Positions 12,548 to 54,637 of a stretch of 64,000 bases of DNA are shown piece after piece. Each line of letters opens with the position of its first letter. Position 1 is the first letter of the stretch. The DNA comes from a bacterium (GTDB lineage Bacteria > Elusimicrobiota > Elusimicrobia > UBA1565 > UBA9628). Position numbers and translations under genes: made by a program. The notes below the pieces were generated by a model. That model did no database searches. It saw only the letters and a list, made by a program, of their open reading frames with translations, and was not told where the DNA came from. The DNA is taken from positions 1 through 64,000 of the forward strand of contig JAJXVH010000007.1 in assembly GCA_021782205.1 (NCBI GenBank), written 5' to 3'.

Positions 12548-13378
12548 ATGGCGTTGCATCTACCGATCAACGGCGTCTGCAATATCAAGTGCGTGTTCTG
12601 TTCCGCGCACGGGCGCACGGGCGGCTATGAGTTGCCGGACCTGCTGAAGGAAATCAACGACGACAGGACGGGCCACGTGCAGATCTCGGGCGGCGACCCG
12701 ATGATGCGCAGGCCGCTGGAAGTGCTGGCCATCGTGGCGCATGCGAAGAAACAGGGTAAGATCGTCGAGTTCCAGACCAACGGCGTTCTGGTGGAGAAAT
12801 GGCCGCCGCGTCGCCTGAGCCAACTCACGGGCCTGATCGACTTCTGGAACATTAATTTTTCCGCGCACACGCCGGAATTGGATGAGGCGGTGACGCTGAC
12901 GCCGGGTGCGTTCGACGCGCGTTCGCGCGGGGTGCGCCGCCTGCTGACGTTGGGCAAGCCCGTGCGTCTCAACTACATCGTTCACGAGCAGAACTACCGC
13001 CATGCCGAGGACTTCGTACGCTTCGCGGCGAAAGCGTTTCCGGGCTTCGCGTGGATACAGTTCTCCTACGTCAAGGGCATGGGCCGCGCCAAGGGCAACG
13101 CCATGGTGATGCCGCGTTTTCGCGACGCCGCCCCTTTCCTGACGCGGGCCTTCCGCGCCTGCGACGAACTGGGCGTGAACTTCGACGTGGACCACATCCC
13201 CGTCTGCTTCGTGCTGGAGTGGAAGGACCGCCACGCCGACTACCGCAAGATGCGCGAGGCCCAGCCGGGACGCCACCTGGCGGAAAAACAGCAGGTCGCC
13301 GACTGCGACGGCTGCGCCATGCGCGAGCTGTGCCCGGGGCCGCGCAAGGACTACATCGAGGTCTACGGAAGCCTATGA
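12548..13378 (+). CDS. Radical SAM protein, first gene of the cluster
   Basis: A 276-residue radical SAM enzyme. C11-x3-C15-x2-C18 lies at the very N-terminus in NGVCNIKCVFC, and the GGE-type motif appears as ISGGDPM. A C-terminal CDGCAMRELCPGP forms a short SPASM/twitch-like cysteine set that probably binds an auxiliary cluster. Such short maturases often act on peptides. It is translationally coupled (ATGA) to the cysteine-desulfurase-like gene. The 56-nt gap upstream holds a TATGAT that may be a -10 box at 12528, without a convincing -35. The substrate is unknown. Confidence 0.85.
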   Translation: MALHLPINGVCNIKCVFCSAHGRTGGYELPDLLKEINDDRTGHVQISGGDPMMRRPLEVLAIVAHAKKQGKIVEFQTNGVLVEKWPPRRLSQLTGLIDFWNINFSAHTPELDEAVTLTPGAFDARSRGVRRLLTLGKPVRLNYIVHEQNYRHAEDFVRFAAKAFPGFAWIQFSYVKGMGRAKGNAMVMPRFRDAAPFLTRAFRACDELGVNFDVDHIPVCFVLEWKDRHADYRKMREAQPGRHLAEKQQVADCDGCAMRELCPGPRKDYIEVYGSL

Positions 13379-14658
13379 ACGCGGCCTCAGCAATCGCTGC
13401 CTTCGACGTCGAGGCCCTGCGCGCGCGCTACCCGGCGTTGGAGCGTGCGCGCGACGGCCGCCGCCTGGTCTACCTCGACAGCGCGTGCACCGCGCTTAAG
13501 TCCCGGCGCATGGCCGACGCTTTAGCTGCGTTCTACGCCGAGGGCGGCGGCTGCGGCGGCAAGCGCTCGACGCACCGCCTGGGCCGCGAGGTCGAGGAGC
13601 TCTTTTCCGCCGCGCGCGCCGCGGCCGCGGCCTTCCTGAACGCCGACGGCCCCGGCGAGATCGTCTTCACCTCGGGCACGACCGAGGCCGCCAACCTGGT
13701 CGCCCGCGGATTTCCGTACGACGACGCGCGTCGCGGCGTGGTGATCACGGACTTGGAGCACAACGCGGTGGCCCTGCCGTTCTTGGAAGCCGCGCGGCGC
13801 GGCGAGATTGACCTGAAAATCTGCCCCTCGCGCGACGGGCGTCTGGATTTGAACCGCTTGGAAGCGCTGGTGGGCGAGACGACGGCGCTGGTCGCGGTCA
13901 CGCACGCGTCCAACGTCATGGGCGGCGTGGCGCCGGCGGCCGAGGCGGCCAAGATCGCGCGGCGCAAGGGCGCGCGGATCTTCGTCGACGACGCGCAGTT
14001 TCTGGGCACCCACCGCGAGAACGTGGCGACCTTGGGCGCGGACTTCGTCGCGTTCTCGGCGCACAAGCTGGGCGGGCCTTTCGGCTTCGGCGTGCTCTGG
14101 GGGCGGGAAAACGAGCTCCATCGCTTGCGCCCCTGGAAAGTCGGAGGCGGCACGGTCAAGGACGTGGCTTGGGACGGCGGCGAGGGACTGCCCGAGGCGG
14201 TTTATCTCGACGCCCCCGCGCGCTTGGAGGCGGGAGTGCCTGACTTCGGCGGAGCGGTCGGCCTGCGCGAGGCCTTGGCCGAGCGCGAGGAGCTTCCGGC
14301 GGCCGCGGTCCGCGCGCACGTCGCGGGACTGGTGCGGCGGACCGTCGCGGGGCTGGTGAAGACCGCGGCCGTGCGCGTGCTCGGACTTCCCGAGGACTTG
14401 GAAAAGGGAAGCCTGGTGAGCTTCGCGCCCGCGCATCCAGAATTCTCGGCCCAGGACTTCAACATTTATCTGAACAATGAACTGCCGGGACGCTTCGTGG
14501 CCGTCCGCGTCGGCGAGCACTGCGCGCACCTTCTGCATCGCCGCCTGGGCGTCAATGCCAGCGTGCGCGCCTCCTTTGGCCCCTACAACACCGCGGCCGA
14601 GGCGGACCTCTACGTGGACGCCGTCGCTTCCTACGCGCGGGAGGCCTGCGGTGGCTGA
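13375..14658 (+). CDS. Class V aminotransferase / cysteine desulfurase (SufS-like)
   Basis: A 427-residue PLP enzyme. VYLDSACTALKS at the N-terminus, VFTSGTTEAANLVA, DLEHNAVALPF, IFVDDAQFLGTH and the Schiff-base lysine in SAHKLGGPFGFGVLWG all fit the SufS/CsdA branch. A cysteine that could carry a persulfide is present in RVGEHCAHLL, at the position of the SufS active-site Cys. Starting at ATG 13375 gives a 4-nt overlap with the radical SAM gene before it. The next radical SAM gene starts inside its last codons. Placed between radical SAM genes, it could supply sulfur for cluster repair or for insertion into a product. No SufE, SufU or SufBCD is visible. Confidence 0.82.
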   Translation: MNAASAIAAFDVEALRARYPALERARDGRRLVYLDSACTALKSRRMADALAAFYAEGGGCGGKRSTHRLGREVEELFSAARAAAAAFLNADGPGEIVFTSGTTEAANLVARGFPYDDARRGVVITDLEHNAVALPFLEAARRGEIDLKICPSRDGRLDLNRLEALVGETTALVAVTHASNVMGGVAPAAEAAKIARRKGARIFVDDAQFLGTHRENVATLGADFVAFSAHKLGGPFGFGVLWGRENELHRLRPWKVGGGTVKDVAWDGGEGLPEAVYLDAPARLEAGVPDFGGAVGLREALAEREELPAAAVRAHVAGLVRRTVAGLVKTAAVRVLGLPEDLEKGSLVSFAPAHPEFSAQDFNIYLNNELPGRFVAVRVGEHCAHLLHRRLGVNASVRASFGPYNTAAEADLYVDAVASYAREACGG

Positions 14659-15928
14659 CGTTCCCGCGCGCATCGCCGCCGAACTGCCCGCGCTCGAGCG
14701 CATCGACCGCGAGAGCTTCGACGAGCCCAAGTGCTTCGACATCCTGCTCAACTACAACTGCTCGGCCAAGTGCCTGTTCTGCTCCCAGGACTTCGCGTGG
14801 CGCAAGGAGCCCAACGACCTGCCCTTCGAGAAGGCCGTCGAGTTCATGTACATGGCCTACAAAAACGGCTACCGCCGCCTGGGATTTACCGGCGGCGAGC
14901 CGACGATCCGTCCGGAGCTGCCCAAGCTCATCGCGCTGGCCAAGAAGATCGGCTACGGCTACGTGCGCATCCAGACCAACGGCATCCGCATCGCCGATTA
15001 CGCCTACGCGAAGACCCTCGCCGACGCGGGCCTGACCTTCGTGAAGTACTCCCTGCACGGCCACAACGCGGAGCTTCACGACAAGCTGGTCGCGGTGCCC
15101 GGCGCCTTCGAAAAGAATCTGCGCTCCATCGAGAATCTTAAAAAATTGAACGTGGGCATCGGCGTCAACATCGTGCTCAACGATTGGAACTACCGCCACC
15201 TCGTGGAGTTCTACGAGCTGTTCCTGCTCAAGCTCCAGCTCTCGAACTTCGTCATCATCGCTCCGCTCTACGAGGGCAACATGACCCTCAACGACAAGGA
15301 GGGCGCCAAGATCGGCGCGCGCCTGTCGGACATGGCACCCTACATTCGAAAGGCCTACGAGGTCTTCACCAAGATCAACTATCCCAAGCCGCCGCTTCTG
15401 CTCCATTTCACGCCCTGCGTTCTGCCCGGCTACGAGCAGCAGATGCTGGGCTGGTCGGCGTTCAACACCATGGTCGTCAATCCCAAGGGCGAGAAGCGCG
15501 ACCTGGACATGACCGCGCAGTCGCACACGACCAAGACCGAGGCGTGCAAAAAGTGCGTCTACAACGACCGCTGCATCGGCTGGGACTCAAGCTACGCGCG
15601 CGTGTTCGGCACCGATGAGATTGCGCCGCTTCTGGAGATTCCGGAGCGCTACGACGCGCCCACGCGTGGCCGGCCCGCGCACGAAGGCCGGGGCGGCGTG
15701 CTGACCGACAACGAGCAGTGCGTGCTGGAGGTGCTCAAGCGGCGCAATGATTTGACGACCAAGCAGTTCCTGGAGGTCGCCGAGTCCCTGCCCATCTGCA
15801 AGGACTGCAAGGACGAGAACGCCGTGATGAACGCGGCGGAGACCTTGATCAAGATGGGCGTCGTCGAACGCCGGTTCGTCAAGGGCAAGTATCTCTGGTC
15901 GCGCAAGGCGGAGGTGCCCGCCACATGA
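14651..15928 (+). CDS. Radical SAM protein with C-terminal winged-helix-like domain
   Basis: A 425-residue enzyme starting at GTG 14651, with GGGAGG about 7 nt upstream. The motif is C37-x3-C41-x2-C44 in NYNCSAKCLFC, with TGGEPTIRPELP, QTNGIRIADY and KYSLHGHNAELHD. Auxiliary-cluster cysteines lie in FTPCVLPGY and EACKKCVYNDRCIGW. After about residue 345 there is an extra domain with a helix-turn-helix look (NEQCVLEVLKRRNDLTTKQF, then METLIKMGVVERRFV-like helix and wing), which also has CKDCKDEN. The extension may be a peptide-recognition or regulatory domain. It is closely related to the radical SAM domain of the gene at 27185 and to the gene at 30970, which share LHDKLVxVPGAF-type and HFTPCV segments. 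Confidence 0.87.
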   Translation: MADVPARIAAELPALERIDRESFDEPKCFDILLNYNCSAKCLFCSQDFAWRKEPNDLPFEKAVEFMYMAYKNGYRRLGFTGGEPTIRPELPKLIALAKKIGYGYVRIQTNGIRIADYAYAKTLADAGLTFVKYSLHGHNAELHDKLVAVPGAFEKNLRSIENLKKLNVGIGVNIVLNDWNYRHLVEFYELFLLKLQLSNFVIIAPLYEGNMTLNDKEGAKIGARLSDMAPYIRKAYEVFTKINYPKPPLLLHFTPCVLPGYEQQMLGWSAFNTMVVNPKGEKRDLDMTAQSHTTKTEACKKCVYNDRCIGWDSSYARVFGTDEIAPLLEIPERYDAPTRGRPAHEGRGGVLTDNEQCVLEVLKRRNDLTTKQFLEVAESLPICKDCKDENAVMNAAETLIKMGVVERRFVKGKYLWSRKAEVPAT

Positions 15929-16905
15929 GCGCGCGCGCCGAAAGCGGCTGGACGCCGCCGCCGGGCCGGACGCAGAAGTTGGTGCTGTTCACCGGCTTCT
16001 CCTGCTCCAGCCACTGCCACTTCTGCATCGACCTCAACAAGCGCGACCTGCCCGACAAGTCCTCGCGGCAGATCGTCGAGGAGATGGTCCGCGCCAAGGC
16101 CGCGGGTGTGGAGTATCTGGAGATGATCGGCGGCGAGGCCACGATCCGCGGCGATTTCATCCCACTGGTGCGGACCGCCCGCAAGCTGGGCTTTAAAGAC
16201 GTCGTCGTGGTGACCAACGGCCGCATGTTCGCCGATCCCGCCTTCGCCCGGGCCACGGTCGAGGCCGGAGTCACCGACCTGGTCTTCTCCATCCACGGCC
16301 CCGACGCGAAGCTCCACGATGAGTTGACCTACGTGCCCGGCGCGTTCGACGAGTTGATCCAGGGCGTCGCCCACGTGCGCGCGGCGGGCCTTGCGCGCAT
16401 CTTCGGCAACTGCACCGTGGTCAAGCAGAACATGAAGCGCCTGCCGGAGATCGCGGCGCTGTTCTTGAAGCTGGCCATCCACCACGTCGAGTTCATTTTC
16501 GTGGACCCGACCTACGGCGGTGCCTATACGAACTTCAACGGATTGGTGCCGCGCATCGCGGACGCCGCGCCGTACATGCGCGCGGCGCTGGACGTGGGCC
16601 GCCGCGGCGGCACGCGCGACTTCGTGGTGCGCTACGTGCCGCTGTGCCACTTCACCGACTACCTGGACCAGGTCTCCGAGATCCGCGAGGTCGCGACCTT
16701 CCGCACCCGCCACTGGGCGCCGGACTTCATCAACGATGACGTCGGCGCGGGGCGCGTGGCCGCGGGCCGCGCGAAGACGGAGCGTTGCGCGGGCTGCGCG
16801 CTGTACGATCGCTGTGAAGGAATTTGGCGGGAGTATTTGAATCGCTATGACGATTCTGAACTCATCTGCGTTGGAAAAGCGGCGACGGTCGGTGAGGATC
16901 GCTGA
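15925..16905 (+). CDS. Radical SAM protein
   Basis: A 326-residue enzyme with C27-x3-C31-x2-C34 in GFSCSSHCHFCIDL, IGGEATIRGDF (GGEA in place of GGEP), VVTNGRMFADP and FSIHGPDAKLHDELTYVPGA. A C-terminal CAGCALYDRCEGIWREY provides a short cysteine set for an auxiliary cluster. The start overlaps the preceding radical SAM stop by 4 nt. The stop is followed 1 nt later by the methylase gene. It belongs to the same subfamily as the genes at 14651, 27185 and 30970. The substrate is unknown; context suggests a peptide. Confidence 0.87.
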   Translation: MSARAESGWTPPPGRTQKLVLFTGFSCSSHCHFCIDLNKRDLPDKSSRQIVEEMVRAKAAGVEYLEMIGGEATIRGDFIPLVRTARKLGFKDVVVVTNGRMFADPAFARATVEAGVTDLVFSIHGPDAKLHDELTYVPGAFDELIQGVAHVRAAGLARIFGNCTVVKQNMKRLPEIAALFLKLAIHHVEFIFVDPTYGGAYTNFNGLVPRIADAAPYMRAALDVGRRGGTRDFVVRYVPLCHFTDYLDQVSEIREVATFRTRHWAPDFINDDVGAGRVAAGRAKTERCAGCALYDRCEGIWREYLNRYDDSELICVGKAATVGEDR

Positions 16906-16906
16906 C

Positions 16907-17626
16907 ATGCGCCGCAAAGGCCGACTTGTACTCGCGTCCTATGGCCTCAACGATCGGCAGATGACTATTGAGACTTTGGTCGCCTTGCGCGAGTGCGATT
17001 TAATTTACAGCGAGTCTTTGGATGGAGATTCACGGGCGTCTCTTGAGCGGACGTGTCCTCCCATCATTTCTCTGCGGGATATTGCACCGGACGACGTCAC
17101 GGATTTGTTGATCTCGGAGGTGCGCAAAGGGAAGAATGTCGCGTACCTGACTTACGGAGATCCCGGGATTTTAAGTCCTTGCGAACGGTTCGTTTCGCGA
17201 TGTGAAAAGGAAAAAATAGAATATCGCCTGTATCCGGCGATTTCTTCCCTCAACGTGCTTCTCTGGCAGGAAAAACTAATCAAGTCCGGCGCGGCCGGCG
17301 TCTTGTTGAGTTGGGTGGGCGCGGAAATCCGCGCGTTCTGCATCGATATTCCGGCGCTTGTTTTTCTTTTTGGAGTGAAGCCGTTCAACAGCGCAAGCGT
17401 GGCGAGTCTGATCGTGAATATTCAGCGCGCTTATCCGTCGGATCATGTCGTGGAGGTGCTCTCGTACGCGGCATCGACCCCGGATAACCCGCGCCGAAGA
17501 AAATACGCCGTGAGCGAGCTGGCGCGAGCATGGCGGGAGGCGGATAATCAGAGCACGCTCTACCTTCCCGCGGTCGGTCGTCGGGTAGCGAAGGCCCGTA
17601 AGCGGGTACGAGGCGGACATGCCTGA
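16907..17626 (+). CDS. Tetrapyrrole-methylase-fold SAM-dependent methyltransferase
   Basis: A 239-residue protein of the TP-methylase fold. Visible are RLVLASYGLNDRQMTIETL, ECDLIYSESLDG, VRKGKNVAYLTYGDPGIL (the G-D/H-P-G loop that binds SAM, residues 83-87) and YRLYPAISSLNVLLW. There is no cobalamin or siroheme biosynthesis gene nearby. Besides tetrapyrrole enzymes, the fold includes the borosin methyltransferases that N-methylate peptide backbones, and a peptide-modifying context makes that reading attractive. I use the ATG at 16907, with GGTGAGG upstream; an alternative start at 16847 would overlap the radical SAM gene by 59 nt. A related but divergent gene lies at 59407. Confidence 0.7.
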   Translation: MRRKGRLVLASYGLNDRQMTIETLVALRECDLIYSESLDGDSRASLERTCPPIISLRDIAPDDVTDLLISEVRKGKNVAYLTYGDPGILSPCERFVSRCEKEKIEYRLYPAISSLNVLLWQEKLIKSGAAGVLLSWVGAEIRAFCIDIPALVFLFGVKPFNSASVASLIVNIQRAYPSDHVVEVLSYAASTPDNPRRRKYAVSELARAWREADNQSTLYLPAVGRRVAKARKRVRGGHA

Positions 17627-18578
17627 TTTTCCGATCTGGCCGCAATGCAATATCGCCTGCGTTTTCTGCTCCAACCCGACGGAGGGTTATCGCGAGACGA
17701 CAGGGATGTATTCTTACGAAGAACTCAAGAAAAAGGTCGAGGACTACAAGCGCGGCCTACAGACTTTCGTTAAATTCGACGAGGTCGGCGACTACTTCAA
17801 TCTAACCGGCGGCGAGCCGACGATCCATCCTGAATTTCTGAGGGTGCTCGCCTTGATCCGAACGGAATTCCCCGCGAACCTGATCCGCCTGCTGTCCAAC
17901 GGCCGGATGTTCGCCGAAGCGAATTTCGCGCGCCGCACCTGCGGCATCGTCGGCCTGCCGTTCGAGATCGCTGTGCCGATGTTCGGCGGCGACGCTCGCA
18001 GCCACGAGGCAATCTCGCGCACGCCGCTTTCTTTCCAGCAGACCGTTCAGGGTCTGCGGAATTTAGCCAAGCATCGTCTTCCCGGCCAGAAGGTTGAGAT
18101 CCGGATCATCATGACGAAAGTTCAGGCGCGCTTTTTAGGCGGCTTGCTCGAGCTCTTGCTGGCTGAATTCGCATGGGTCGATCGCGTGGTGTTCCTGTTC
18201 GAAGAGATCGAGGGCTTCGCCGAACACTACAAGGATCGGCTGGTTTTCACTCAGAGCGAATGCGCCTCCGTCATCGATCGACATTTCGATATGCTTTCGA
18301 GGTTTAGGGAGGTGCGGCTGTACCATTTTTCGCTTTGTACCACGCCGACGCGGCTGTGGCCCTACGTTTGGCGCACCCTGGCCGGATTTAAAGTGACCTG
18401 GCTGGACGGTTGCCGCACCCGTTGCCTTTACCGCGAACAGTGCGTCGGCGTGCATCGATCCTACGAACGTCACGCGGGCGCTCCCGACATCTCGCCGATT
18501 CTGGAGAGGCGTCCGGTCGAGCTTTCTGGCGATCCCTACCATCCGATCAGGGCGGTCAATGACCCGACTTCGCTCTAA
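17619..18578 (+). CDS. Radical SAM protein
   Basis: A 319-residue enzyme with C10-x3-C14-x2-C17 right at the N-terminus (WPQCNIACVFC), LTGGEPTIHPEFL and LLSNGRMFAEANF. C-terminal cysteines lie in LDGCRTRCLYREQCVGVH, consistent with an auxiliary cluster. The short N-terminus and overall size resemble the first gene of the cluster at 12548. It overlaps the methylase gene by 8 nt and the following HxsD-like gene by 20 nt. This ties the upstream radical SAM block to the His-Xaa-Ser block. Confidence 0.86.
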   Translation: MPDFPIWPQCNIACVFCSNPTEGYRETTGMYSYEELKKKVEDYKRGLQTFVKFDEVGDYFNLTGGEPTIHPEFLRVLALIRTEFPANLIRLLSNGRMFAEANFARRTCGIVGLPFEIAVPMFGGDARSHEAISRTPLSFQQTVQGLRNLAKHRLPGQKVEIRIIMTKVQARFLGGLLELLLAEFAWVDRVVFLFEEIEGFAEHYKDRLVFTQSECASVIDRHFDMLSRFREVRLYHFSLCTTPTRLWPYVWRTLAGFKVTWLDGCRTRCLYREQCVGVHRSYERHAGAPDISPILERRPVELSGDPYHPIRAVNDPTSL

Positions 18579-18993
18579 GTGTGTCCGCGTGCGTGCGCCG
18601 GAACACGTGGATCGCCGCGCATTCTTGGATGCGTGCGGCCGAATGACCGATGACGCCTGGGTGCGCCTGGATGAGCGAAACGGACGACTCACGGCGGTGC
18701 TGACGCCCCGCGTCGGGTCCGGTGTGGGATTGGTCGCGCGCTGGCGCCGTGAATACGAATCGGCCGCAACGCGCTGCCTGTTTTTGGCCGAGCAGCGCGT
18801 TTTGAACGCGGCGGTCATGTCTCGGGCGCTGGAATTGGCCCAGCATGTGGACGCGCGACGGCAAAGGCCGTTGCCGGAGTTGTCGCCGGAGCGTCGCGCC
18901 GAGATTTCGGCCTTGTTGGCCGAGGCGGACGCCGCTCCCAAGGATCCTCTCGGCATCACGAGGCCGTGGTCGGATCGTGGGAGCCGCGATTGA
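18559..18993 (+). CDS. HxsD-like small protein 1
   Basis: A 144-residue protein that I place, with caution, with the small HxsD-type partners of His-Xaa-Ser systems. The order is a short beta strand (KCVRVRAPEHV), a helix (RRAFLDACGRMTDDAWVRL), a strand with a turn (NGRLTAVLTPR), then long helices (YESAATRCLFLAEQRVLNA, SRALELA). The Pro/Ala-rich charged tail LSPERRAEISALLAEAD closely matches LTPDQRAEIEKLIAEVE in the better HxsD candidate at 20506. It is coupled to the gene at 18990 by a TTGA overlap. It is the most divergent of the four, so the family name is tentative. Confidence 0.5.
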   Translation: MTRLRSKCVRVRAPEHVDRRAFLDACGRMTDDAWVRLDERNGRLTAVLTPRVGSGVGLVARWRREYESAATRCLFLAEQRVLNAAVMSRALELAQHVDARRQRPLPELSPERRAEISALLAEADAAPKDPLGITRPWSDRGSRD

Positions 18994-19370
18994 GGCGCGC
19001 TTCGGCGTCTCTGCCGCGGTCGCTTTATCGGCGCGCCGACCTTGCCGCCGCGGCGGATTGGTTGGGGGGGCGCGTTCAGGCCAGGCTTCTTTCTCGTGGC
19101 CAGCGCTGGCACCTTTCCATTTTGACCGACGCCGGATTGGATGCTCGCGCGGCCCTGGCGGAGATGCTCAATGAGGCGCTGTTGCGGGGCTTACGCGAAA
19201 TGCGGCTTAAAGAGGTCGGCCCGCTGGCCGCCGCCGTGGCCGGACGCATGCTCGATCATGGGTTTCCCTCGGACCCGGCGGACCCGTTGGAGGAAATGGA
19301 ACCGCAGGTCCGCGCCGACCGCAGGCGAGAAACTCAAGCGCTTATAGAGCGGGCTCGGGGCATACCGTGA
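18990..19370 (+). CDS. HxsD-like small protein 2
   Basis: A 126-residue protein. I start it at the TTG at 18990, which overlaps the previous stop (TTGA) and has GGGAG 7 nt upstream; the GTG at 18966 is the alternative. The layout is SLYRRADLAAAADWLGGRVQ (compare LYSEDAVRIAAHVFESQAEI in the gene at 22610), a beta hairpin RWHLSILTDAG, then ALAEMLNEALLRGLREM, matching the EFLNELLNQEQRM segment of the 22610 protein. It lies directly upstream of, and overlaps by 4 nt, the motif-less HxsB relative. The same D-then-B order is seen for the two intact HxsB genes, which supports pairing. Confidence 0.55.
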   Translation: MRRASASLPRSLYRRADLAAAADWLGGRVQARLLSRGQRWHLSILTDAGLDARAALAEMLNEALLRGLREMRLKEVGPLAAAVAGRMLDHGFPSDPADPLEEMEPQVRADRRRETQALIERARGIP

Positions 19371-20458
19371 CCTCGCGCCCCCCGCCTGGCGGAGGCGAGG
19401 CCGTCCCGGAATTACCGGATGTCGACGCGTTGGCGCGCGCGCTTGTCGCCACCGGAGTGCTCAACTGGACGGGACCTCTAACGCATGTTATTGTCGCATC
19501 CCGGGGAGCCGTCGGCATGTCGCCGGAAATGGCCCGGGCCGCCGTCGATTTCGCCTTTTCCACGCCGCGACCGACGATTCGTTTGGAGATCGTCGGTGCG
19601 GAGGGAGCCGGGCGTCAAGCGGGGTGGCTGGCGGTGGAATACGCGCGCCGAAAAGCGGAATGGAGAGGGCGGGGGTTGGCCTTGTCCTGGCGGACAGCGC
19701 GTCGACCCGCCGCGGAACAGTCGGCTTGGTTGGCCGCAAACCGTGTGGAAGTCGTGGCGGACGTGAGGGCCGTGGGCGGGCCGGAGCGTTCGCAGTTGTT
19801 TCCAGCCGCGCGCGCTCGCGTGCGGCTGGCGCGTGGGGCCGCGTGCCCCGAAAGTTGGATCGACGCCCTCGCGTCGTTGGGCGTTTCCCAGGTCTCGTGG
19901 GAGCCTGATGTCGTTGCTACGGATTGGCCAGCCCCTGGTTCGGCGCGCCGCGCGGCGAAGTTCGCGGCAAGGGCATTGGCGCGGCTCATTGAGACGCATG
20001 AACGTTCGGGCCTGCGCGACGAACGCGCCGTCGCGTTGCTTTCCTTTCGGCCTTGGGAAATTCCGGGAACGGATCTTCTGTCGACTCTCGCCTATTCGCC
20101 GGAGGGGGGAATCTACTCGTCGGAAGCGGGTTATCGACGGGCTGAAGAGGAGAACAATTCGAGGCGTTTGGGCTTTTTCGAAGTGACGCGGTTCTCTCAA
20201 TTCGCTTCAATGCCGACGGTTCAAGCCATCCTTGCTGCCGCGTGGCGAGCCGGCCATCCAGAGTGTTCCGATTGCCCTTACAGGGAACAGTGTTCGCTGC
20301 CATGGTCTCGGAAATCCTGCGGCAGAGGCGGTCCGGCTCACGCCTGGTGTGCGTTGCACACCGCCTTGATGCGTGGCATTTTTTCATATCCCGATCGCGA
20401 AAAATGTATAAGTGCATTGAATAAATGGGGCGTTGACATTTCTCGGATCGCCTGGTAA
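19367..20458 (+). CDS. HxsB-like protein lacking the radical SAM cysteine motif
   Basis: A 363-residue relative of the HxsB maturases downstream. Homology is visible at two ends. Residues 38-64 (LTHVIVASRG, then MSPEMARAAVDFAF) align with VHTIVVTRRC and MTPEIARAAVDLAF of the gene at 23077. Residues 240-330 (GGIYSSEAG; C300-x2-C303-x5-C309, C318, C328) align with the SPASM-type region GGVYTSEDG and MCSQCAYAPYC. The stretch that should hold CxxxCxxC is absent, as is the GGEP motif (LEIVGAEGAG). It therefore cannot bind the SAM-cleaving cluster, yet it keeps the C-terminal cysteines. It is intact and coupled to its HxsD-like partner, so it is probably a non-catalytic subunit rather than a pseudogene. 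Confidence 0.72.
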   Translation: MTSRPPPGGGEAVPELPDVDALARALVATGVLNWTGPLTHVIVASRGAVGMSPEMARAAVDFAFSTPRPTIRLEIVGAEGAGRQAGWLAVEYARRKAEWRGRGLALSWRTARRPAAEQSAWLAANRVEVVADVRAVGGPERSQLFPAARARVRLARGAACPESWIDALASLGVSQVSWEPDVVATDWPAPGSARRAAKFAARALARLIETHERSGLRDERAVALLSFRPWEIPGTDLLSTLAYSPEGGIYSSEAGYRRAEEENNSRRLGFFEVTRFSQFASMPTVQAILAAAWRAGHPECSDCPYREQCSLPWSRKSCGRGGPAHAWCALHTALMRGIFSYPDREKCISALNKWGVDISRIAW

Positions 20459-20461
20459 GAT
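20433..20461 (+). promoter_or_regulatory. Strong sigma70-type promoter before the HxsD/HxsB/HxsA genes
   Basis: A perfect TTGACA at 20433-20438, an exact 17-nt spacer, and TAAGAT at 20456-20461 (five of six). It lies over the last codons and stop of the motif-less HxsB relative, 44 nt before the ATG at 20506. It would let the catalytic HxsD/HxsB/HxsA block be transcribed independently of the genes upstream. Confidence 0.65.
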
Positions 20462-20505
20462 CAGTAGAGGTCGTATTTTGCTACCTTATTTGCGGCCAGG
20501 CGCTC

Positions 20506-24534: not shown

Positions 24535-24558
24535 CGCGTGCGCGCGGAGGACGAGAGA

Positions 24559-24924: not shown

Positions 24925-24961
24925 GCGCGGGCGGCGGCGCGCGGGGGACTGAGAGCTTTCG

Positions 24962-34185: not shown

Positions 34186-35828
34186 GAGGAGAGCTCGGAG
34201 TCGTCTTGGAACAGCGCAACGGTCCCGATGGGGGACGGAGAAGACGAGGCAAGGTCGCGGCGATGGCGGCCATGTCTGCGGGTCGCAGGCGCGTGGATGC
34301 GGGCGATATTCCCGGAGCTTTGCGACTTTTTGGAAAGGCCGTCGCGATCGATCCGAACTGCGCGCAGGCATATCTTTATCGCGCCGGTCTGCGGCTGCTT
34401 CACGGCGACCTCGACGGCGCGTTGGATGATTTTCGCGCGATTCCATTCTTAGACCACTCTTTTCTTCCCGCCTATCGAGATTTGACGACCCTTTCAGCGG
34501 AAGAGTTTCCGCAGCTCATCTCTGCGGCGGAGTCGGCGGTCAAGCAAGACCCCGACTGTGCCTGGGCTTTGGTGTTCCGGGCCTTTTGCTTCCGAAGCTT
34601 AATGAAGTACGAAGACGCGATCAAGGATTTAAACCATGCGGTTGCCGTCGCCCCGCGCTCCCCGGCGCTCTGGGCCATTCGTTCCCGCGTAAAACTGACG
34701 AATCGGCAGGCCTTCTACAACGGCGTACGGGACATGGAGAAGGCCGTCGCGTTGGCTCCGGATTGGGGGTGGCTGCAGTGCTGGCTGGGAGAAGCTCTGC
34801 GTCATCAGGGACAGCATCGGCGGGCCCTCGCCGCGCTCGATCGCGGCCTAGAATTGGAGCCGGGCTATTTACGCGGCTGGGCATGGCGCGGCGGTGTGAA
34901 GAACGCTCTTCGAGATTATCGTGGCGCCATCGCGGACCTGGGCCGATCCTTGGATTGGGACCCGATCTACTCCTATGATTTCGAATACACCTACGATCAG
35001 AAATCGTGGGCATACAATCAACGGCAAATTGCGCGCCGCGGTCTCGGCGACGTTCGCGGCGCCTTGCGCGATCTCAACCGCGCGCATCGCTACGGTCCGC
35101 GCTACGCTTGGACGTTCAGTCGCGATGGGCGCCCAGACGAGTACGCGTCAGGCGTCGCCGAATTGGACTCCTACCTCCGCAAGTCTCCCAAGGACGCCTG
35201 GGCGTGGGCTTGGCGCGGCTGGACTTTGCATCAGGCCCAGCGGGACGACGAGTCGATCGTCAGCCTGAACCGCGCGGTCGACCTCAACCGCTCCGCCTCG
35301 TGGCCCCGTGCCTGGCGCGGCAAGGTCTTGCTCGCGCAGGGGAAATTCGCCGCGTCCGTCTCGGACCTTTCCTGGGCGCTAAGGGTCGATCCAGACTACG
35401 CCCCGGCTTGGGGTTGGCGTGCGCAGGCGCGGCGCAGGATGGGCGACCTTCGTCGTGCCGCCGCGGACTTCGGCCGCGCGATCAGGGAAGACCACCGTGC
35501 GGCTTGGGCCTTAGCCGGGCGAGGTGAAGCGCGCCGCGGTTTAGGAGACTTGGACGGTTCGCTGGCGGACCTCGATCGAGCTCTCGGTATTCTGCCTGAC
35601 TATGCCGAAGCGCTGGGTTGGCGCGCGGAGACGCGAAGACTGCGTGGGGATGCGGCGGGCGCGCTCGTCGACGCGCAAAGAGCTCTGAAGCTGCGGCCGG
35701 GACTTTCGCTGGTCTACGTCACCCGTGCGTTGCTTCGGGGCCAGGTCCGCGACTTCCAGGGTCAGGTCCGCGACATGCGCACGGCTCGGCGGCTATCGCC
35801 GGAACTATTCGCGGGGGGCGGCTCTTGA
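34182..35828 (+). CDS. TPR protein
   Basis: A 548-residue repeat protein starting at ATG 34182 in a 4-nt overlap with the preceding TPR gene. Clear repeats include GALRLFGKAVAIDPNCAQAY, WLQCWLGEALRHQGQHRRAL, RGWAWRGGVKNALRDYRGAI and WGWRAQARRRMGDLRRAAAD. In the middle is the atypical unit YAWTFSRDGRPDEYASGVAE, leading into a repeat with WAWAWRGWTL. It is cytoplasmic, with no catalytic motif. It forms a tandem series with the TPR genes on both sides. The lengths differ but the repeat signature is the same, consistent with expansion by duplication. Confidence 0.82.
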   Translation: MRGELGVVLEQRNGPDGGRRRRGKVAAMAAMSAGRRRVDAGDIPGALRLFGKAVAIDPNCAQAYLYRAGLRLLHGDLDGALDDFRAIPFLDHSFLPAYRDLTTLSAEEFPQLISAAESAVKQDPDCAWALVFRAFCFRSLMKYEDAIKDLNHAVAVAPRSPALWAIRSRVKLTNRQAFYNGVRDMEKAVALAPDWGWLQCWLGEALRHQGQHRRALAALDRGLELEPGYLRGWAWRGGVKNALRDYRGAIADLGRSLDWDPIYSYDFEYTYDQKSWAYNQRQIARRGLGDVRGALRDLNRAHRYGPRYAWTFSRDGRPDEYASGVAELDSYLRKSPKDAWAWAWRGWTLHQAQRDDESIVSLNRAVDLNRSASWPRAWRGKVLLAQGKFAASVSDLSWALRVDPDYAPAWGWRAQARRRMGDLRRAAADFGRAIREDHRAAWALAGRGEARRGLGDLDGSLADLDRALGILPDYAEALGWRAETRRLRGDAAGALVDAQRALKLRPGLSLVYVTRALLRGQVRDFQGQVRDMRTARRLSPELFAGGGS

Positions 35829-37393
35829 GCGGGCGCGATCTTTTGACGGGTTTCGCCAAATCCGTGCTGGTGCACCGGCACGCATTTATTCCTTCGGTCG
35901 CGCGCAATACTCAAATCGGCCGCGGCGCACGTATGCCGGCCTCTTTCAACGAAGCCTACGGTGTTTCCGCGCCGGCGGACGTCGATCGGGCCGTTCATTC
36001 CGGCCGCTATATCGACCTAAAGCATCGGCTCCAGCAATGGTCGCGACGGGATCCGACCCGGCCAGAGCCCGAGGTCATGGCTGGGATTCTGGGGCTTTGG
36101 TCACGGACGCCGAAGAGTGGCGGGGCGCCGCTCGAATCGCTCATCAATCGATACGCCTCCCTTCGCGGGGTGCGCGCCTTGGAGCGGGCCGCACGACGAT
36201 TTCACAGATGGCCGCCGGCGCGTTTGTGGCTTTCTCTGGCGCTTCTGAGACGTAATGAGCTGGTGGCGGCGCGGCGCGAGTTGCGCGAACTGATCCGGCT
36301 GCGCCCGGATTGGGTTTGGCCCGTCCTCGTGCGTTCGGAAGTGGAACGCGTGGATATTCGTTTTGATCAGGCGCTTCTTGATTTGGATCAGGCGGAGAGC
36401 CTGGAGCCGAAAAATCCGTGGATCCACGCCTTTCGAGCGCGCGTTCTTTTTCAAATGAAACCAGGTCCCGAAGCCCAGGCGGCGATGGACCTCGCGGCCT
36501 TGCTGGGACCCGAGGAAGGCTGGATCCGCGCTTGGCGCGGCGACTCGCTTCGAAAGCGCGGCCGTCTGGACGAAGCCGCACGGGAGCTAAAAACAGCTCT
36601 GCGCCTTGATCCGGATTACGATCGCGCCTATCTTTGGCTGGGCAAGGTCCTGCGCGCGCGCGGCCGGCCGCTTCAGGCTGACCGAGTATTAACAAGCGGA
36701 ATGAAAAAGTGCCCGCATTTCGAAAAGGCTTTCGCGGAAAGAGCCCGGGCGCGCTTTTCCTTGGGCCGCGTCGAGTCCGCCTTGCGGGATCTGGAAGCCG
36801 CAGCTCGCGTTAATCATCGTCACAACTCGTTGCTCTCCTGGACAGCCGAACCAGAGCCTCTGGATGAGCAGCGCCGACGCATCCTGAAGCGTCTCGCTGT
36901 ACATGCACGCTCCCACCCTCGTTCGGCGCGCGCGTGGGCATGGTTGGGGGAGGCCCTGGTTCAATCTGGCGAATACCAAGTCGGGGTGGAGTCTCTCAAT
37001 TTGGCGCTGGAACTCAGGCCGTCCCACGCGTGGGCTCTTGCGTGGCGGGGGGAAGCGTTCATGCGTCTGAACCGGCTTAAAGAGGCGGAACAGGATTTGT
37101 CCGCATCTCTGCGCATGGATTCTTCCTACGGCCGCGCCCACGCGTTTCGTGGGCGCGTGCGATTTTTAAGAGGCAAGCCTCGCGCCGCCATCATGGATAT
37201 GCGTCGAGCGGTCGCGGATTCCATGATTGAATATTCCTGGATGTATCTTTGGCGGGCGGAAGCCTACGCGAGTCAGGGCGATTTTCGCCGCAGCGATGAT
37301 GATCTCAAGACCGCCGTCGCGCTTGATGCATCCCTCGTCGAGCGAGCGCAGCGCCTTGCGCGTTTAATGCCCGCGGAGAAAGCCGCACCATGA
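35825..37393 (+). CDS. TPR protein, paralogue of the TPR half of the fusion at 27185
   Basis: A 522-residue protein started at TTG 35825 (TTGA overlap). Its repeats from about residue 135 match the TPR half of the protein at 27185 segment by segment. LDPDYDRAYLWLGKVLRARG is followed by KCPHFEKAF, ARVNHRHNSLLSWTAEPEP, RSARAWAWLGEALVQSG, SSYGRAHAFRGRVRFLRG and MIEYSWMYLWRAEAY. The fusion has CPHFEKAH, ATLNHRNNWLGVWRVEGHP, DASYGRAWAWRGRVRLLCG and VEYSWICAWRGEAR at the same places. It lacks the radical SAM domain. The pair may compete for, or share, a binding partner. Confidence 0.82.
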   Translation: MSGRDLLTGFAKSVLVHRHAFIPSVARNTQIGRGARMPASFNEAYGVSAPADVDRAVHSGRYIDLKHRLQQWSRRDPTRPEPEVMAGILGLWSRTPKSGGAPLESLINRYASLRGVRALERAARRFHRWPPARLWLSLALLRRNELVAARRELRELIRLRPDWVWPVLVRSEVERVDIRFDQALLDLDQAESLEPKNPWIHAFRARVLFQMKPGPEAQAAMDLAALLGPEEGWIRAWRGDSLRKRGRLDEAARELKTALRLDPDYDRAYLWLGKVLRARGRPLQADRVLTSGMKKCPHFEKAFAERARARFSLGRVESALRDLEAAARVNHRHNSLLSWTAEPEPLDEQRRRILKRLAVHARSHPRSARAWAWLGEALVQSGEYQVGVESLNLALELRPSHAWALAWRGEAFMRLNRLKEAEQDLSASLRMDSSYGRAHAFRGRVRFLRGKPRAAIMDMRRAVADSMIEYSWMYLWRAEAYASQGDFRRSDDDLKTAVALDASLVERAQRLARLMPAEKAAP

Positions 37394-38622
37394 GAGCTCT
37401 TTTCGCCGCAGACGGCACCTCGCTCCGTCCGGGGGTGGGGGAGCGCTCGCCGTTGACGCGGTTTCGATCATTTCTGCGCCTGGATGAACAGCCTGATCCT
37501 CCGCTCATGATTCAAGGGGTGCGTCATGCCTGGGATGTCTTCGCGCTCCCGGCGGCCGAGCCGATCTGGTTTGAACGCTTCCTCACGCCGCAATTTCGTT
37601 GCGCGATGTCCGCCGTGGAAGGGTGCGAAGCTTATGCGGTTTTTTCCGCCGAAGACATCCCGGAGTCCCTTCGTTCCAAACCGTGGATGAGCCTGATCAA
37701 GAGTGTCCGGGATTATTCATGCCTCGACCCGGATCAGCGCGTCGCTCTCCTGCGGGCTCTCGGAGCCCTCAGCCTCTATTGGGACGTGGAGCGATTGATT
37801 TCGCGCCATCCTTTTCCGGTGTCCGCCGCCGCGAGTTCCAAGGCGCGCCACGATCTAATTCGAGAGCGCGTGAGATTCCTTTTGCGCGAACAACGCCTGG
37901 GGCGGGATCGCACTTTCGTATTTCTCGATATCGCGCGGCGGGCGCCGGAGGGCTCCCTGGAACGCCTCGAAGCGAGCATTTTCTTCCTTTCCCGCGCGCT
38001 GGAAAAAGGTGTCGACGCCGCTTCCCTCCGGCTCGGCCGGAGGCTGGCCGAGGAAACGTTGACCGCGGCACGTCGGAGATGTCCGCCATGGGAGTATGAG
38101 CGCTGGAACAGCAAATTCTGGCGGTGCGTCTCCTATGAGTCGTACCTGCGGGGGCGTCGTCGCGACGCCCGCCTTCAGTTGGATCGAGCGGAGCGCGCGG
38201 CCCGCGAATGCCTGAGACTGACTCCGTCCACCCAGGCGAAATTCGGCCTGGAGGATCTCTACGGAGTTCTCACGACGAAGGTATTGACGGAAATGAAGCT
38301 GGAGCAGCCTCGGCGGGCCTGGGGCATCGTTCAGGAACTGATCGTTCTCGATCCTGAAGGCGCTTGGCAAAGATATGAGGCGGCGAAAATTTGCTTCGCG
38401 CGTTCTGAATTGGAAGTGGCCGCCGAGCATTGCCGCGCGGCCTTGCGCTTGGGCCCGCCGCGGCGCGCGGACGCGGCACGGCTGCTGGCGGAATGTTGCG
38501 CGCGATTGAATCAGCCCGACGAATCTCAGCATTGGCATCATGAGGCCCGCCGATTCGGCGATGCCGAACGCTTTCAGGGGGGCGGCGCGCCCGGGTCGAC
38601 GTCAAGGGGCGGTCGGCGATGA
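37390..38622 (+). CDS. Helical protein of unknown function (paralogue 1 of 2)
   Basis: A 410-residue protein that I do not recognise. The N-terminal part (about 1-130) has LMIQGVRHAWDVFALP and VEGCEAYAVFSAEDIPESLR. The rest is helical, and the C-terminal third looks TPR-like (PRRAWGIVQELIVLDPEGAW, EVAAEHCRAALRLGPPRRAD). The following gene is a paralogue aligning along its whole length. Both overlaps are 4 nt, so it is part of the same polycistron. There is no signal peptide or metal-binding motif. It may be another scaffold or recognition protein. Confidence 0.7.
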   Translation: MRALFAADGTSLRPGVGERSPLTRFRSFLRLDEQPDPPLMIQGVRHAWDVFALPAAEPIWFERFLTPQFRCAMSAVEGCEAYAVFSAEDIPESLRSKPWMSLIKSVRDYSCLDPDQRVALLRALGALSLYWDVERLISRHPFPVSAAASSKARHDLIRERVRFLLREQRLGRDRTFVFLDIARRAPEGSLERLEASIFFLSRALEKGVDAASLRLGRRLAEETLTAARRRCPPWEYERWNSKFWRCVSYESYLRGRRRDARLQLDRAERAARECLRLTPSTQAKFGLEDLYGVLTTKVLTEMKLEQPRRAWGIVQELIVLDPEGAWQRYEAAKICFARSELEVAAEHCRAALRLGPPRRADAARLLAECCARLNQPDESQHWHHEARRFGDAERFQGGGAPGSTSRGGRR

Positions 38623-39830
38623 GCGATCCGCGACGTGCTCCATCGGCCCCCGTCCGATATACGCGCGACTCGCCGGAATACGCGCAGTTCCGGCCATATT
38701 TGGCGCTGGAGCCGTCGGACAATGCGCCAATTCTCATCGAGGGCATTCTGCAGACCTGGTCTCAACTCGATAATAATACCTCGGGTCCTTGGTACGAGCG
38801 TTCTTTGCCCGCAGCCTTCCGCAGGGATTTCTTATGGATTCCCGGTTTGGAGGCCTATGCGACCGCTTCGGCCGATGCGATTGCGGTATCCATCCGCTCT
38901 GAGGCGTGGGAGCGCCTGCTCAAATTTAAACGGAGCTTTTCGAGTCTCGAGTTCAAACAGAAGATCGCGTTGCTCCGTCTCTTGGGCATGCTCGGTTTTT
39001 ACCGCGACAACGCCGAATTGCTGCGCGGTGAGGGGGCGACGCGCGGGCCCTTGGACGTTCGGAAAGCGGAAATGGAATATCTGCGGGCCAACAACCAAGT
39101 CCTGCTGGACGAACCAGGCCTTCAGCAGGATTATAGTGTGATGTATTCCGTCGCGGAGAGGGCGGCTCCCGGGACCGCGATAAGGTTCCTTGCCGCCGTC
39201 AAATCCATGACGCTCTACGCCGAGCATGGGCAGAATCACGAGCGCCTGCGCGCTGCGGAAAGAATCGCGAGCGAAACGCTGGCCCAGCAACGGACGCGGG
39301 TGCCTCCAAGCGCTTACCTGTCCATGGAAAGCCGCTACTGGCGAACCGTCAGCTATCTCCCCTTTCTCGACGGGGATGTTGCCGAGGTCGACCGGCGTCT
39401 AGATCGCGCGGAGGACTCGGCTCGGCGCGCGATGGCCGTCGGCTCGCTGGAAGAGGCCGCTTTTGCCCGCGATATCCTCTACGCGGTGCTGGCGACTCGA
39501 ACGACGACCGACGTGCGCACGCGGCGTCACGCGCGCGCGTTGCCGCGGCTGGCGGAGATGGTCGCAATGGATCCTTGCGGCGCATGGCAACGACTATGGC
39601 GGGGCATCGTCTATTTCGAGCTTGGCCGCCTAGAGGAAGCGCGCGAAAACCTCTTGATGAGCGTGCGTCTGGCGCCGCCAGGCCTCGGAAAAATCTGCGC
39701 TTGGCTTGACCGATGCTTGGAGGGGTTGAACCGCCATGAGGAAGCCGCTCGATGGCGTAAACGCGCCGCGATGACGAGCCCCGCCGGGGCGACCGGCGCG
39801 GCGGTCGAGAGGGAGAACGGACGGCCATGA
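38619..39830 (+). CDS. Helical protein of unknown function (paralogue 2 of 2)
   Basis: A 403-residue paralogue of the preceding gene. PILIEGILQTWSQLDNN aligns with PLMIQGVRHAWDVFALP, IPGLEAYATASADAIAVSIR with VEGCEAYAVFSAEDIPESLR, MESRYWRTVSYLPFLDGD with NSKFWRCVSYESYLRGR, and AMDPCGAWQRLW-type with LDPEGAWQRYE. The conserved YWRTVSY and GAWQR stretches mark the family. The C-terminus resembles one or two TPR units. It is coupled on both sides, the downstream gene being the first PhyH-type dioxygenase. Confidence 0.7.
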   Translation: MSDPRRAPSAPVRYTRDSPEYAQFRPYLALEPSDNAPILIEGILQTWSQLDNNTSGPWYERSLPAAFRRDFLWIPGLEAYATASADAIAVSIRSEAWERLLKFKRSFSSLEFKQKIALLRLLGMLGFYRDNAELLRGEGATRGPLDVRKAEMEYLRANNQVLLDEPGLQQDYSVMYSVAERAAPGTAIRFLAAVKSMTLYAEHGQNHERLRAAERIASETLAQQRTRVPPSAYLSMESRYWRTVSYLPFLDGDVAEVDRRLDRAEDSARRAMAVGSLEEAAFARDILYAVLATRTTTDVRTRRHARALPRLAEMVAMDPCGAWQRLWRGIVYFELGRLEEARENLLMSVRLAPPGLGKICAWLDRCLEGLNRHEEAARWRKRAAMTSPAGATGAAVERENGRP

Positions 39831-40621
39831 ATTTGTTGCCGGCGCAAAAGCGCGCACTGATGTCGAAGGGATATGTACGGCTTCCCGCCGTCGCCGGACG
39901 GGCCCGAGTCGACGCGGCGCTGCGGCAAATAAACCGCGCGATCGGTCGATCCTCTACATACGGCCGCAACGAAATGCAAAGCTCCGGCGCGGACGGAGTG
40001 TGGGAAGAACTCTCCCGGCATCCCGATATCGAATCTCTTTTTTTTGCGACGCCGGTAAAATCCATCGTGGAGTCATTGCTGGGAAAGCACTGCATCGATC
40101 CCGACCTTCAGCGCACCGCGTTGCTTCGTTTTCCGCAAGCTCACGGGGCTGTCGAACGTACGGCCTTCCATATCGACGGATTTGAATATGGCGGCGGCGC
40201 GGGCGCCCGCGCGGCACCTCCGCAAACGCACACCTTGGCCGTGGCTGTATTTCTCAGCGACACGCGCGACGAGGAGGCAGGAGGGCTGGGCCTTATCCCC
40301 CAATCCCACCGCGCGCTTGAACGCCATTTTCGCGCGCACCCTGAAGCGGTGGAAGCGCGGGAGATGCCGAGCATACGGTTGGCCAAGCCCGTGCGTTTAC
40401 GTGCGCGGCCGGGCGACGCCTATCTTTATCATCACCAAGTGGCGCACAGCGCTTTTGCGTTCAGAAATCTCTCGCCGCGCATCATCTGCGCAGCGGTCTT
40501 TTGGGTCAAGCGCGTTGGCCACGACGCCGTCTGGAAGGAGACGCTGACGGACTTGTGGGGGGAGTGGCCGGGGCTACGGGCGCTTTCCGGTTCCGCGCGA
40601 AGGGGGCGAGTTCGGCGATGA
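39827..40621 (+). CDS. Phytanoyl-CoA dioxygenase (PhyH)-family Fe(II)/2-oxoglutarate oxygenase 1
   Basis: A 264-residue enzyme with a PhyH-type iron-binding triad: H115-x-D117 in AFHIDGFEYGGG and the distal H207 in YHHQVAHSAFAFRN, followed by RIICAAVFWVK. The segment AVAVFLSDTRDEEAGGLGLIPQSH is the core strand and G-rich loop of the family. Members hydroxylate lipids and natural products, or act on amino acids held on carrier proteins; some halogenate when the Asp is replaced, but here the Asp is present. It ends the polycistron together with its paralogue. I infer hydroxylation of the peptide product. Confidence 0.82.
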   Translation: MNLLPAQKRALMSKGYVRLPAVAGRARVDAALRQINRAIGRSSTYGRNEMQSSGADGVWEELSRHPDIESLFFATPVKSIVESLLGKHCIDPDLQRTALLRFPQAHGAVERTAFHIDGFEYGGGAGARAAPPQTHTLAVAVFLSDTRDEEAGGLGLIPQSHRALERHFRAHPEAVEAREMPSIRLAKPVRLRARPGDAYLYHHQVAHSAFAFRNLSPRIICAAVFWVKRVGHDAVWKETLTDLWGEWPGLRALSGSARRGRVRR

Positions 40622-41379
40622 GCCTCACGGATCGAAGCAAGCGCGAGTTTATACGGCGGGGTTATCTGACCCTGCGCGGAATCGTCCCGCGGATGAAAAT
40701 CGGTCCCGCGCTACGCGTTATTAATCAGAAGCTCGGCTCCGGTTCGAGGAAAGGCGCCAGCCCCGAGCATGTGCCGTTTTTCTCCGATCTGTTCAACTCC
40801 CCGGAACTGATGTCTCTATTGATGGAGACGAAGCTTTGGCCTGTCGTCGAGAGTCTCCTTGGTCCTGGATGCGCCCAGCGTCCGCAAGCCGAAGTCACGC
40901 TGGGCTTCCCGAACATGGACGCCTCCGCTCATTTTAACGCCAAGGAGCTTCACATCGACGGGCTTCCGGACAAGGGCCGCCGTGAGACCTATACGCTGAA
41001 CGTCGGCGTATTTCTCAGCGACGTTCCCGGTCCGAACATGGGTAATTTCAAGGCATGCCCCGGATCGCACCTGTGGGTTGCCGAGCATGCGCGTCGTTTC
41101 GGGCCTTATGGCATTAACCCGGCGTTGAGGGACCTGCGCGGCACCGCCGGAGAAACCGATGAGCTCATCGCGCGTGCCGGCGATGCGGTGGTTTGCCACT
41201 ACAATCTTGTTCATGCGCGCCAGTGGAACGCCTCGCCGCACATTCGCTATGCCGTATTTTTTCGCGTCTATGCGAAGGGGCACCTCACACGATGGCAATA
41301 CGTGATGCGAGAACCCTGGGTCGAGTGGGCGGGGCTGGCCCATCTTCGGCCGAAGAACGCTGGGAGCACTGCGGACTAG
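40618..41379 (+). CDS. PhyH-family Fe(II)/2-oxoglutarate oxygenase 2
   Basis: A 253-residue paralogue of the preceding oxygenase, coupled by ATGA. H112-x-D114 in ELHIDGLPDKG and the distal H199 in NLVHARQWNASPHIRYAVFF form the iron site; LNVGVFLSDVPGPNMGNFKACPGSH is the core. It shares the N-terminal pattern KREFIRRGYLTLRGIV with the PhyH domain start of its neighbour (KRALMSKGYVRLPAV). Its stop shares the four bases CTAG with the stop of the convergent halogenase-like gene, so it closes the plus-strand cluster with no room for a terminator. Confidence 0.82.
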   Translation: MSLTDRSKREFIRRGYLTLRGIVPRMKIGPALRVINQKLGSGSRKGASPEHVPFFSDLFNSPELMSLLMETKLWPVVESLLGPGCAQRPQAEVTLGFPNMDASAHFNAKELHIDGLPDKGRRETYTLNVGVFLSDVPGPNMGNFKACPGSHLWVAEHARRFGPYGINPALRDLRGTAGETDELIARAGDAVVCHYNLVHARQWNASPHIRYAVFFRVYAKGHLTRWQYVMREPWVEWAGLAHLRPKNAGSTAD

Positions 41380-44028: not shown

Positions 44029-44031
44029 AAA

Positions 44032-54631: not shown

Positions 54632-54637
54632 AGATCC

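Follow-up and report, generated by a model that had tools for sequence, protein, structure and literature searches.

A probable enlarged His-Xaa-Ser system with eleven radical SAM proteins and a tail-linked maturase in Elusimicrobiota

Introduction

Positions 12,548 to 41,379 of a 64,000-nucleotide stretch of DNA from a bacterium of the phylum Elusimicrobiota (assembly GCA_021782205.1, contig JAJXVH010000007.1; the whole stretch is hereafter called the window) hold 26 genes, all on the forward strand. They encode eleven radical S-adenosylmethionine (rSAM) proteins, a precursor of the HxsA4 family, homologs of HxsB and HxsD, and accessory proteins including tetratricopeptide repeat (TPR) proteins and oxygenases. 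A reading made from the sequence alone, without database searches (the sequence-only reading), had proposed that this region might represent a new class of heavily modified peptide or protein. The His-Xaa-Ser (Hxs) system comprises HxsA, HxsB, HxsC and HxsD, according to the passage of PMC9062424 in which Haft and Basu are cited. No report on Hxs chemistry was found in the open-licence full-text literature, nor any on a cluster of this kind from Elusimicrobiota in the open-licence literature.

Architecture of the Cluster

Coding sequence accounts for 99.7% of the region and the gaps between genes range from -70 to +47 nt, overlaps of 4-8 nt being the commonest; because the genes overlap, one transcript across 12548-41379 is plausible. 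The motif CxxxCxxC is carried by eleven proteins, all of which (11/11) exceed the cut-off of PF04055, and since the whole genome contains 48 PF04055 matches in 3.09 Mb, simple proportion predicts about 0.45 per 28.8 kb, far fewer than the eleven present. These results bear out the compact same-strand block and the eleven rSAM proteins of the sequence-only reading, and profile search likewise recovered the other genes that it listed, for a cysteine desulfurase-like enzyme, a methylase, TPR proteins and two oxygenases (of PhyH type). Absent from it were the precursor, four genes of HxsD type, HAL (a halogenase-like gene on the opposite strand) and the same-strand TPR genes and halogenase-TPR fusion found at 43960-58113 after a short opposite-strand interruption, because of which the cluster probably extends beyond 41379. 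Coordinates and profile scores of all features are collected in Table 1; Hxs families were scored with the NCBIfam models TIGR03976-TIGR03978.

The HxsA4 Precursor

The precursor scores above the HxsA4 cut-off and consists of a Lys-rich leader with the sequence FLSSEEGK, a hydrophobic segment, a core of SHG triplets and the tail CRGGWCNPRC. Of 340 genomes of the phylum, 93 contain a match to HxsA4. Precursors were taken from 85 genomes, eight with weak matches being left out (G043, G101, G118, G190, G233, G236, G297 and G325, in our genome numbering; 0/8 are among the genomes carrying RS6). The leader motif F[LFIVY]xSEE[GA] was found in 95 of the 101 precursor open reading frames (ORFs). Their tails either read [CSAQ]RGGWC, in some cases extended, with C, S, A or Q as the variable first residue, or are of the types GSY, GQW, GSW, GAW, FSF, GSGT and, once, GSGY. 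An ORF ending in GGWC in G153, the one match in a scan of 101 blocks, overlaps the precursor region and was rejected as spurious.

Two further loci deserve mention. The genome that contains the window has a second HxsA4 locus on another contig (C140; L031-L033, L070), with the tail SHGSY and ten PF04055 matches on the same contig. In G217, an ORF missed by the HxsA4 model (L235:19104-19622, reverse strand) has the leader FLSSEEGK, HGN instead of HGS triplets and the tail SGGWC; it may be a His-Xaa-Asn variant.

HxsB/HxsD Modules and a Dead HxsB Paralogue

Two HxsB proteins (B1 and B2) exceed the family cut-off and four HxsD homologs (D1-D4) are present, connected by hhalign probabilities of about 99% for the pairs D1-D3, D2-D4 and D3-D4; from these counts the cluster appears to be made of repeated D-B modules, with three D-B pairs of which one has a dead B. 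HxsD is predicted to fold as strand-strand-helix-strand-strand-long helix. Because HxsA4, two HxsB above the cut-off and four HxsD homologs occur together, the locus is read as an enlarged Hxs system and not as an unrelated new class, an idea abandoned in view of the HxsA4 and HxsB matches. Of the earlier proposal, the heavily modified peptide was strengthened by the encoded precursor and by a gene order kept in relatives; the novelty of the class was lost with the Hxs core.

The twelfth, dead relative of the sequence-only reading is an HxsB paralogue (PsB) at 19367-20458. The CxxxCxxC loop is missing in 6/6 aligned orthologues (window, G203, G214, G196, G227 and G185) and the four C-terminal (SPASM) cysteines are invariant in the same six. 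The N-terminal domain is missing from the copies of the window, G214 and G203, and the match in G209 contains one stop. The model of the G227 copy (mean predicted local distance difference test, pLDDT, 90) retains the rSAM/SPASM fold, with 5why/5wgg and TigE as best PDB matches; its N-terminal part is predicted as three strands followed by three helices before the rSAM domain. In comparisons of the whole model, the alignment to CteB and TigE runs from the N-terminal domain onward, starting at residue 1 or 15 for 5why/8vpo. Against G195, dN/dS is 0.29 for PsB and 0.23-0.29 for the HxsD genes, with saturated dS (>1.2). Given the similar dN/dS and the SPASM cysteines kept in all six, a decaying pseudogene is less likely, and the simplest reading of these sequences is a kept pseudo-enzyme.

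RS6 and RS5 Track the Precursor Tail

RS6, encoded by the second gene downstream of the precursor, was detected at E 1e-30 or better in 40/340 genomes. It occurs in 37/37 genomes with RGGWC-tailed precursors versus 0/48 untailed ones (Fisher p 6e-25, calculated without phylogeny correction), two genomes with contig-cut precursors having been entered as untailed (G207, which has a window-type leader, and G231, with a cut precursor only). Each of the four mixed genera that contain both kinds of tail (g1, g12, g44 and g45) obeys the rule internally. In the fetched stretches RS6 scored at least 146 bits in 29/38 tailed loci and at most 93 in all other loci. For 9/28 xRGGWC loci RS6 lies outside the fetched stretch, elsewhere in the same genome, so that plain linkage is an insufficient explanation of the association. 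Among three RS6 genomes with no HxsA4 match (G217, G115 and G205), the first carries its HGN-repeat precursor ending in SGGWC next to an RS5 relative and HxsB, and RS6 is also present. RS5 scores 633-724 bits in ten loci with the long tail CRGGWC[NC]PRC and at most 237 elsewhere. The closest solved relative of RS6 by sequence is 5wgg, titled a thioether-forming enzyme, for which reason a bond from a tail cysteine may serve as a first guess and no more.

Conserved Order and Cassette Exchange

The order RS1-CSD-RS2-RS3-RS4-D1-D2-PsB-D3-B1-D4-B2-A4-RS5-RS6-RS7-RS8-RS9 recurs, with the same eleven rSAM genes, in G214 and G227 and is mostly kept in G203, G196 and G185; splitting into separate operons with no co-occurrence, the outcome that would have refuted the sequence-only reading, was not seen. 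The gene caller had been trained on GC-rich genes of the window; its calls were poor for G106, G222 and G153, so the order comparison excludes these three, which were examined as six-frame ORFs only, and it overlooked PsB in the window. Within 10 kb of HxsA4 there are 2 to 12 rSAM genes, with a median of 7, in the 55/101 precursor rows with at least 18 kb of flank (one row per precursor ORF, so that two-precursor loci were entered twice). In a search with RS2 that gave 75 named loci, every locus with more than 32% identity carries the title Elusimicrobia, Elusimicrobiota, Elusimicrobiales or 'bacterium', and a few titled as other groups lie at 25-32%.

The left end of the cluster is flanked by a trio of GabT, aldehyde dehydrogenase and GabT genes (names assigned from sequence) in the window, G203, G196, G227 and G214. 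The same flank in G204 is followed by an SHGQW-tailed cluster with another rSAM set, and the HGN cassette of G217 lies beside the same left-flank gene. Different Hxs cassettes occupy the same chromosomal site in different genomes. In 20 further genomes the sequence on the cluster side of this gene was inspected: G195 has RS1-RS3 there, and in G192 ORFs resembling D3 and B1 lie at the edge of a contig; no Hxs cassette was seen in the other 18/20, with 0.4-20 kb in view and the short contigs uninformative. DNA identity between the window and G195 is 87% in the left flank and 90% in RS1-RS3 (dS 0.29-0.47 for RS1-RS3), and from D3 onward it is 65-71% (dS 1.2-2.2); this fall marks the cluster as a mosaic.

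Other Maturase and Accessory Genes

HxsC4 is the best-scoring rSAM model for RS2, RS3, the rSAM part of RS7 and RS8. Seven PF00266 matches occur in the genome besides the desulfurase CSD. The methyltransferase gene MT has no counterpart between RS3 and RS4 in the five syntenic relatives (G214, G227, G203, G196 and G185); it sits in the interval where identity to G195 falls, and the same interval is unassembled in G195. Through its match to Pfam PF00590, MT may be related to borosin-type enzymes (peptide backbone N-methylation). HAL lies on the cluster strand in G214, G227 and G185. Upstream of the cluster, the window contains an rSAM gene pair at 979-4019 (reverse strand), whose member at 2478-4019 also has a B12-binding domain, with adjoining glycosyltransferase and fatty acid hydroxylase genes, and a 12-cysteine protein whose start resembles a signal peptide at 5038-6036 (forward strand).

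Table 1. Features of the putative Hxs cluster in the window and the evidence for their assignment.
Feature	Position	Strand	Evidence
RS1, HxsC-like rSAM	12548..13378	+	best NCBIfam model HxsC, 70.7 bits, under cut-off 267.9
CSD, SufS-type cysteine desulfurase	13375..14658	+	TIGR01979 297 bits, under cut-off 475; SAHK and HCA motifs
RS2, HxsC4-like rSAM	14651..15928	+	NF038332 111 bits, under cut-off 500
RS3, HxsC4-like rSAM	15925..16905	+	NF038332 115.7 bits, under cut-off 500
MT, tetrapyrrole-methylase-fold methyltransferase	16907..17626	+	PF00590 53.9 bits
RS4, HxsC-like rSAM	17619..18578	+	HxsC 145.6 bits, under cut-off 267.9
D1, HxsD homolog	18559..18993	+	no NCBIfam match; hhalign to D3 99.5%
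D2, HxsD homolog	18966..19370	+	no NCBIfam match; hhalign to D4 99.2%
PsB, HxsB paralogue without CxxxCxxC loop, SPASM cysteines kept	19367..20458	+	TIGR03978, C-terminal part, 40.7 bits; hhalign to B1/B2 100%
D3, HxsD	20506..21081	+	TIGR03976 47.2 bits, just under cut-off 50
B1, HxsB 1, rSAM/SPASM maturase	21078..22613	+	TIGR03978 469 bits, cut-off 370
D4, HxsD	22613..23080	+	TIGR03976 43.8 bits, cut-off 50; AlphaFold model pLDDT 89
B2, HxsB 2, rSAM/SPASM maturase	23077..24534	+	TIGR03978 395 bits, cut-off 370
A4, precursor HxsA4	24538..24924	+	NF038313 71.7 bits, cut-off 55; sequence; 101 precursor ORFs compared
RS5, rSAM directly 3' of precursor	24962..26065	+	profile scores; association with long tail
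RS6, rSAM tied to RGGWC tail	26043..27200	+	association with tail
RS7, TPR repeats (about 900 aa) fused to HxsC4-like rSAM	27185..30973	+	NCBIfam profile scores
RS8, HxsC4-like rSAM	30970..31935	+	NCBIfam profile scores
RS9, rSAM without C-terminal auxiliary-cluster cysteines	31932..32945	+	NCBIfam profile scores; sequence
T1, TPR protein	32938..34185	+	Pfam search
T2, TPR-like protein	34182..35828	+	sequence only; relatives in other clusters
T3, TPR-like protein	35825..37393	+	sequence only; relatives in other clusters
T4, weak TPR, unassigned N-terminal part	37390..38622	+	Pfam search
T5, weak TPR, layout like T4	38619..39830	+	Pfam search
OX1, PhyH-type Fe/2-oxoglutarate oxygenase	39827..40621	+	PF05721; HxD present
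OX2, PhyH-type oxygenase	40618..41379	+	PF05721 24.1 bits, cut-off 22 (searched as 40552-41379)
HAL, flavin halogenase-like	41376..43349	-	PF04820 111.5 bits (searched as 41376-43286); WxWxIP
Further TPR proteins and halogenase-TPR fusion (52184-54631)	43960..54631	+	profile search, 50103-52247 left out
Large TPR protein	54724..58113	+	profile search

Comparison With Known Systems

Like the Hxs system, the cluster combines a repeat precursor with HxsB above and HxsD near the cut-off and with HxsC-like partners. It differs in having eleven rSAM genes versus the two (hxsB and hxsC) annotated in two plasmid Hxs loci, four HxsD genes and three of HxsB type, one of them dead, the tail CRGGWCNPRC with RS5 and RS6, and added TPR, oxygenase, halogenase and desulfurase genes. 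With the HxsA4/HxsC4 pair (NF038313 and NF038332), which was compared by NCBIfam name only, it shares a precursor above the HxsA4 cut-off and four proteins nearest to HxsC4 (RS2, RS3, RS7 and RS8), although no rSAM protein reaches the HxsC4 cut-off. Among solved structures, PDB 5WGG/5WHY, which we take to be CteB, a thioether-forming SCIFF maturase, stands closest to B1 and RS6 in sequence and to the PsB model in fold; yet the PsB model is only 13% identical over the aligned part and the window precursor is different. PapB, the ranthipeptide maturase (NF047865), is the top NCBIfam model for RS5, RS6 and RS9, at 114.5, 97.3 and 95.5 bits versus a cut-off of 340, which places them outside that family. 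Among the best 25 matches per protein, the cyclophane-forming (triceptide-type) families FxsB, XyeB, GrrM, YhhB and AmcB score far below their cut-offs.

Interpretation and Alternatives

We consider it probable, at roughly 0.78, that the cluster is an enlarged Hxs system that modifies the ribosomal precursor HxsA4, with RS6 acting on the RGGWC tail. The HxsB/HxsD modules, including the pair with the dead B, would most likely serve both to bind the leader and to modify the triplets; HxsB, through its N-terminal domain, and perhaps also HxsD would hold the leader. The HxsC-like RS1-RS4, together with a dedicated desulfurase that may serve Fe-S cluster supply or sulfur donation, would add further changes, the repeats being the likely target of HxsB and the HxsC-like enzymes alike. 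Additional changes could be made by RS7-RS9 with the TPR scaffolds, oxygenases and halogenase, the TPR parts (fused to one rSAM protein and one halogenase) holding the long repeat substrate. The RGGWC tail would be the target of RS6 and its Cys-rich extension that of RS5; the peptide would then probably be exported.

Several observations weigh against this interpretation. The cut-offs of HxsC (267.9) and HxsC4 (500) are reached by no rSAM protein of the cluster, the best scores being 145.6 (RS4) and 115.7 (RS3). The HxsD model has no PDB match under E 0.001, which leaves HxsD unsupported as a classical (winged-helix) recognition element of ribosomal peptide pathways (RRE). The p value of the RS6-tail association takes no account of phylogeny, and the genome search for RS6 was limited to five scored candidates per genome. 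No precursor is in view in two genomes that carry RS6, G115 and G205; in G115 the RS6 gene is close to the end of a contig, within a cluster of Hxs type, and the view of G205 is limited to a 6.7-kb contig. At the 12% level used, HAL has no match in the RGGWC loci that lie outside the family of the window, and a halogenase acting on the tail Trp was rejected on the ground that in other families the distribution of HAL does not follow that of the W-bearing tails. Among those cluster and flanking proteins that were searched, which do not cover every gene, none was recognised as a protease or an exporter.

The tie between RS6 and the tail could reflect common descent of one cassette with no action on the tail, as the comparison includes many related genomes and cassettes travel in blocks. 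We regard this as unlikely, in view of the nine xRGGWC loci with RS6 outside the fetched stretch, the agreement of the four mixed genera, the varying letter before RGGWC and the GGWC tail that G217 retains with a different repeat. A second alternative, in which an ordinary two- or three-enzyme Hxs core lies beside a separate pathway made of the other rSAM, TPR and oxygenase genes, draws on the many HxsA4 loci that show HxsB alone among the window's families and on the plasmid loci annotated with hxsB and hxsC only. Overlapping genes, an identical set and order in G214 and G227, the tie of RS5 and RS6 to the precursor tail and the median of seven rSAM genes around HxsA4 make such a boundary improbable.

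It may also be asked whether the product of the rSAM genes is a cofactor, either a small molecule or a tetrapyrrole-like compound, which the His-rich protein merely carries or binds. MT matches the tetrapyrrole-methylase fold (TP_methylase), NirJ/AhbD models are among the weaker matches of RS1-RS4, RS7 and RS8, and metal binding is possible for His-rich repeats; the five syntenic clusters, however, have no MT between RS3 and RS4, two proteins exceed the cut-off of HxsB, a peptide maturase by family name, and a free cofactor does not predict that RS6 should track a peptide tail, so that we judge this explanation very improbable.

Conclusion

The cluster is a strongly expanded form of the Hxs system, which is known but chemically uncharacterised, and it shows a new enzyme-tail pairing. 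Its novelty lies in its size, in the retention of a dead HxsB paralogue, in a maturase (RS6) linked to the tail and in cassette exchange at a single site. More tentatively, and with somewhat less than even confidence, the Hxs systems of Elusimicrobiota may be viewed as one modular line with a constant leader, a repeat zone and an exchangeable tail, in which rSAM proteins are zone-specific (RS6 for RGGWC, RS5 for the Cys-rich extension), a dead HxsB is retained as a scaffold and complete cassettes replace one another at a single site.

If the proposed reading is true, about a dozen rSAM enzymes would act on one precursor, and few ribosomal peptides so far proposed would be as heavily modified by radical enzymes. 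The Hxs system was named from sequence, and the perfect association of RS6 with the tail offers a defined enzyme-substrate pair that can be tested by expression. The presence or absence of modules versus tails over dozens of genomes would provide a natural dissection of which rSAM enzyme modifies which part of the peptide.

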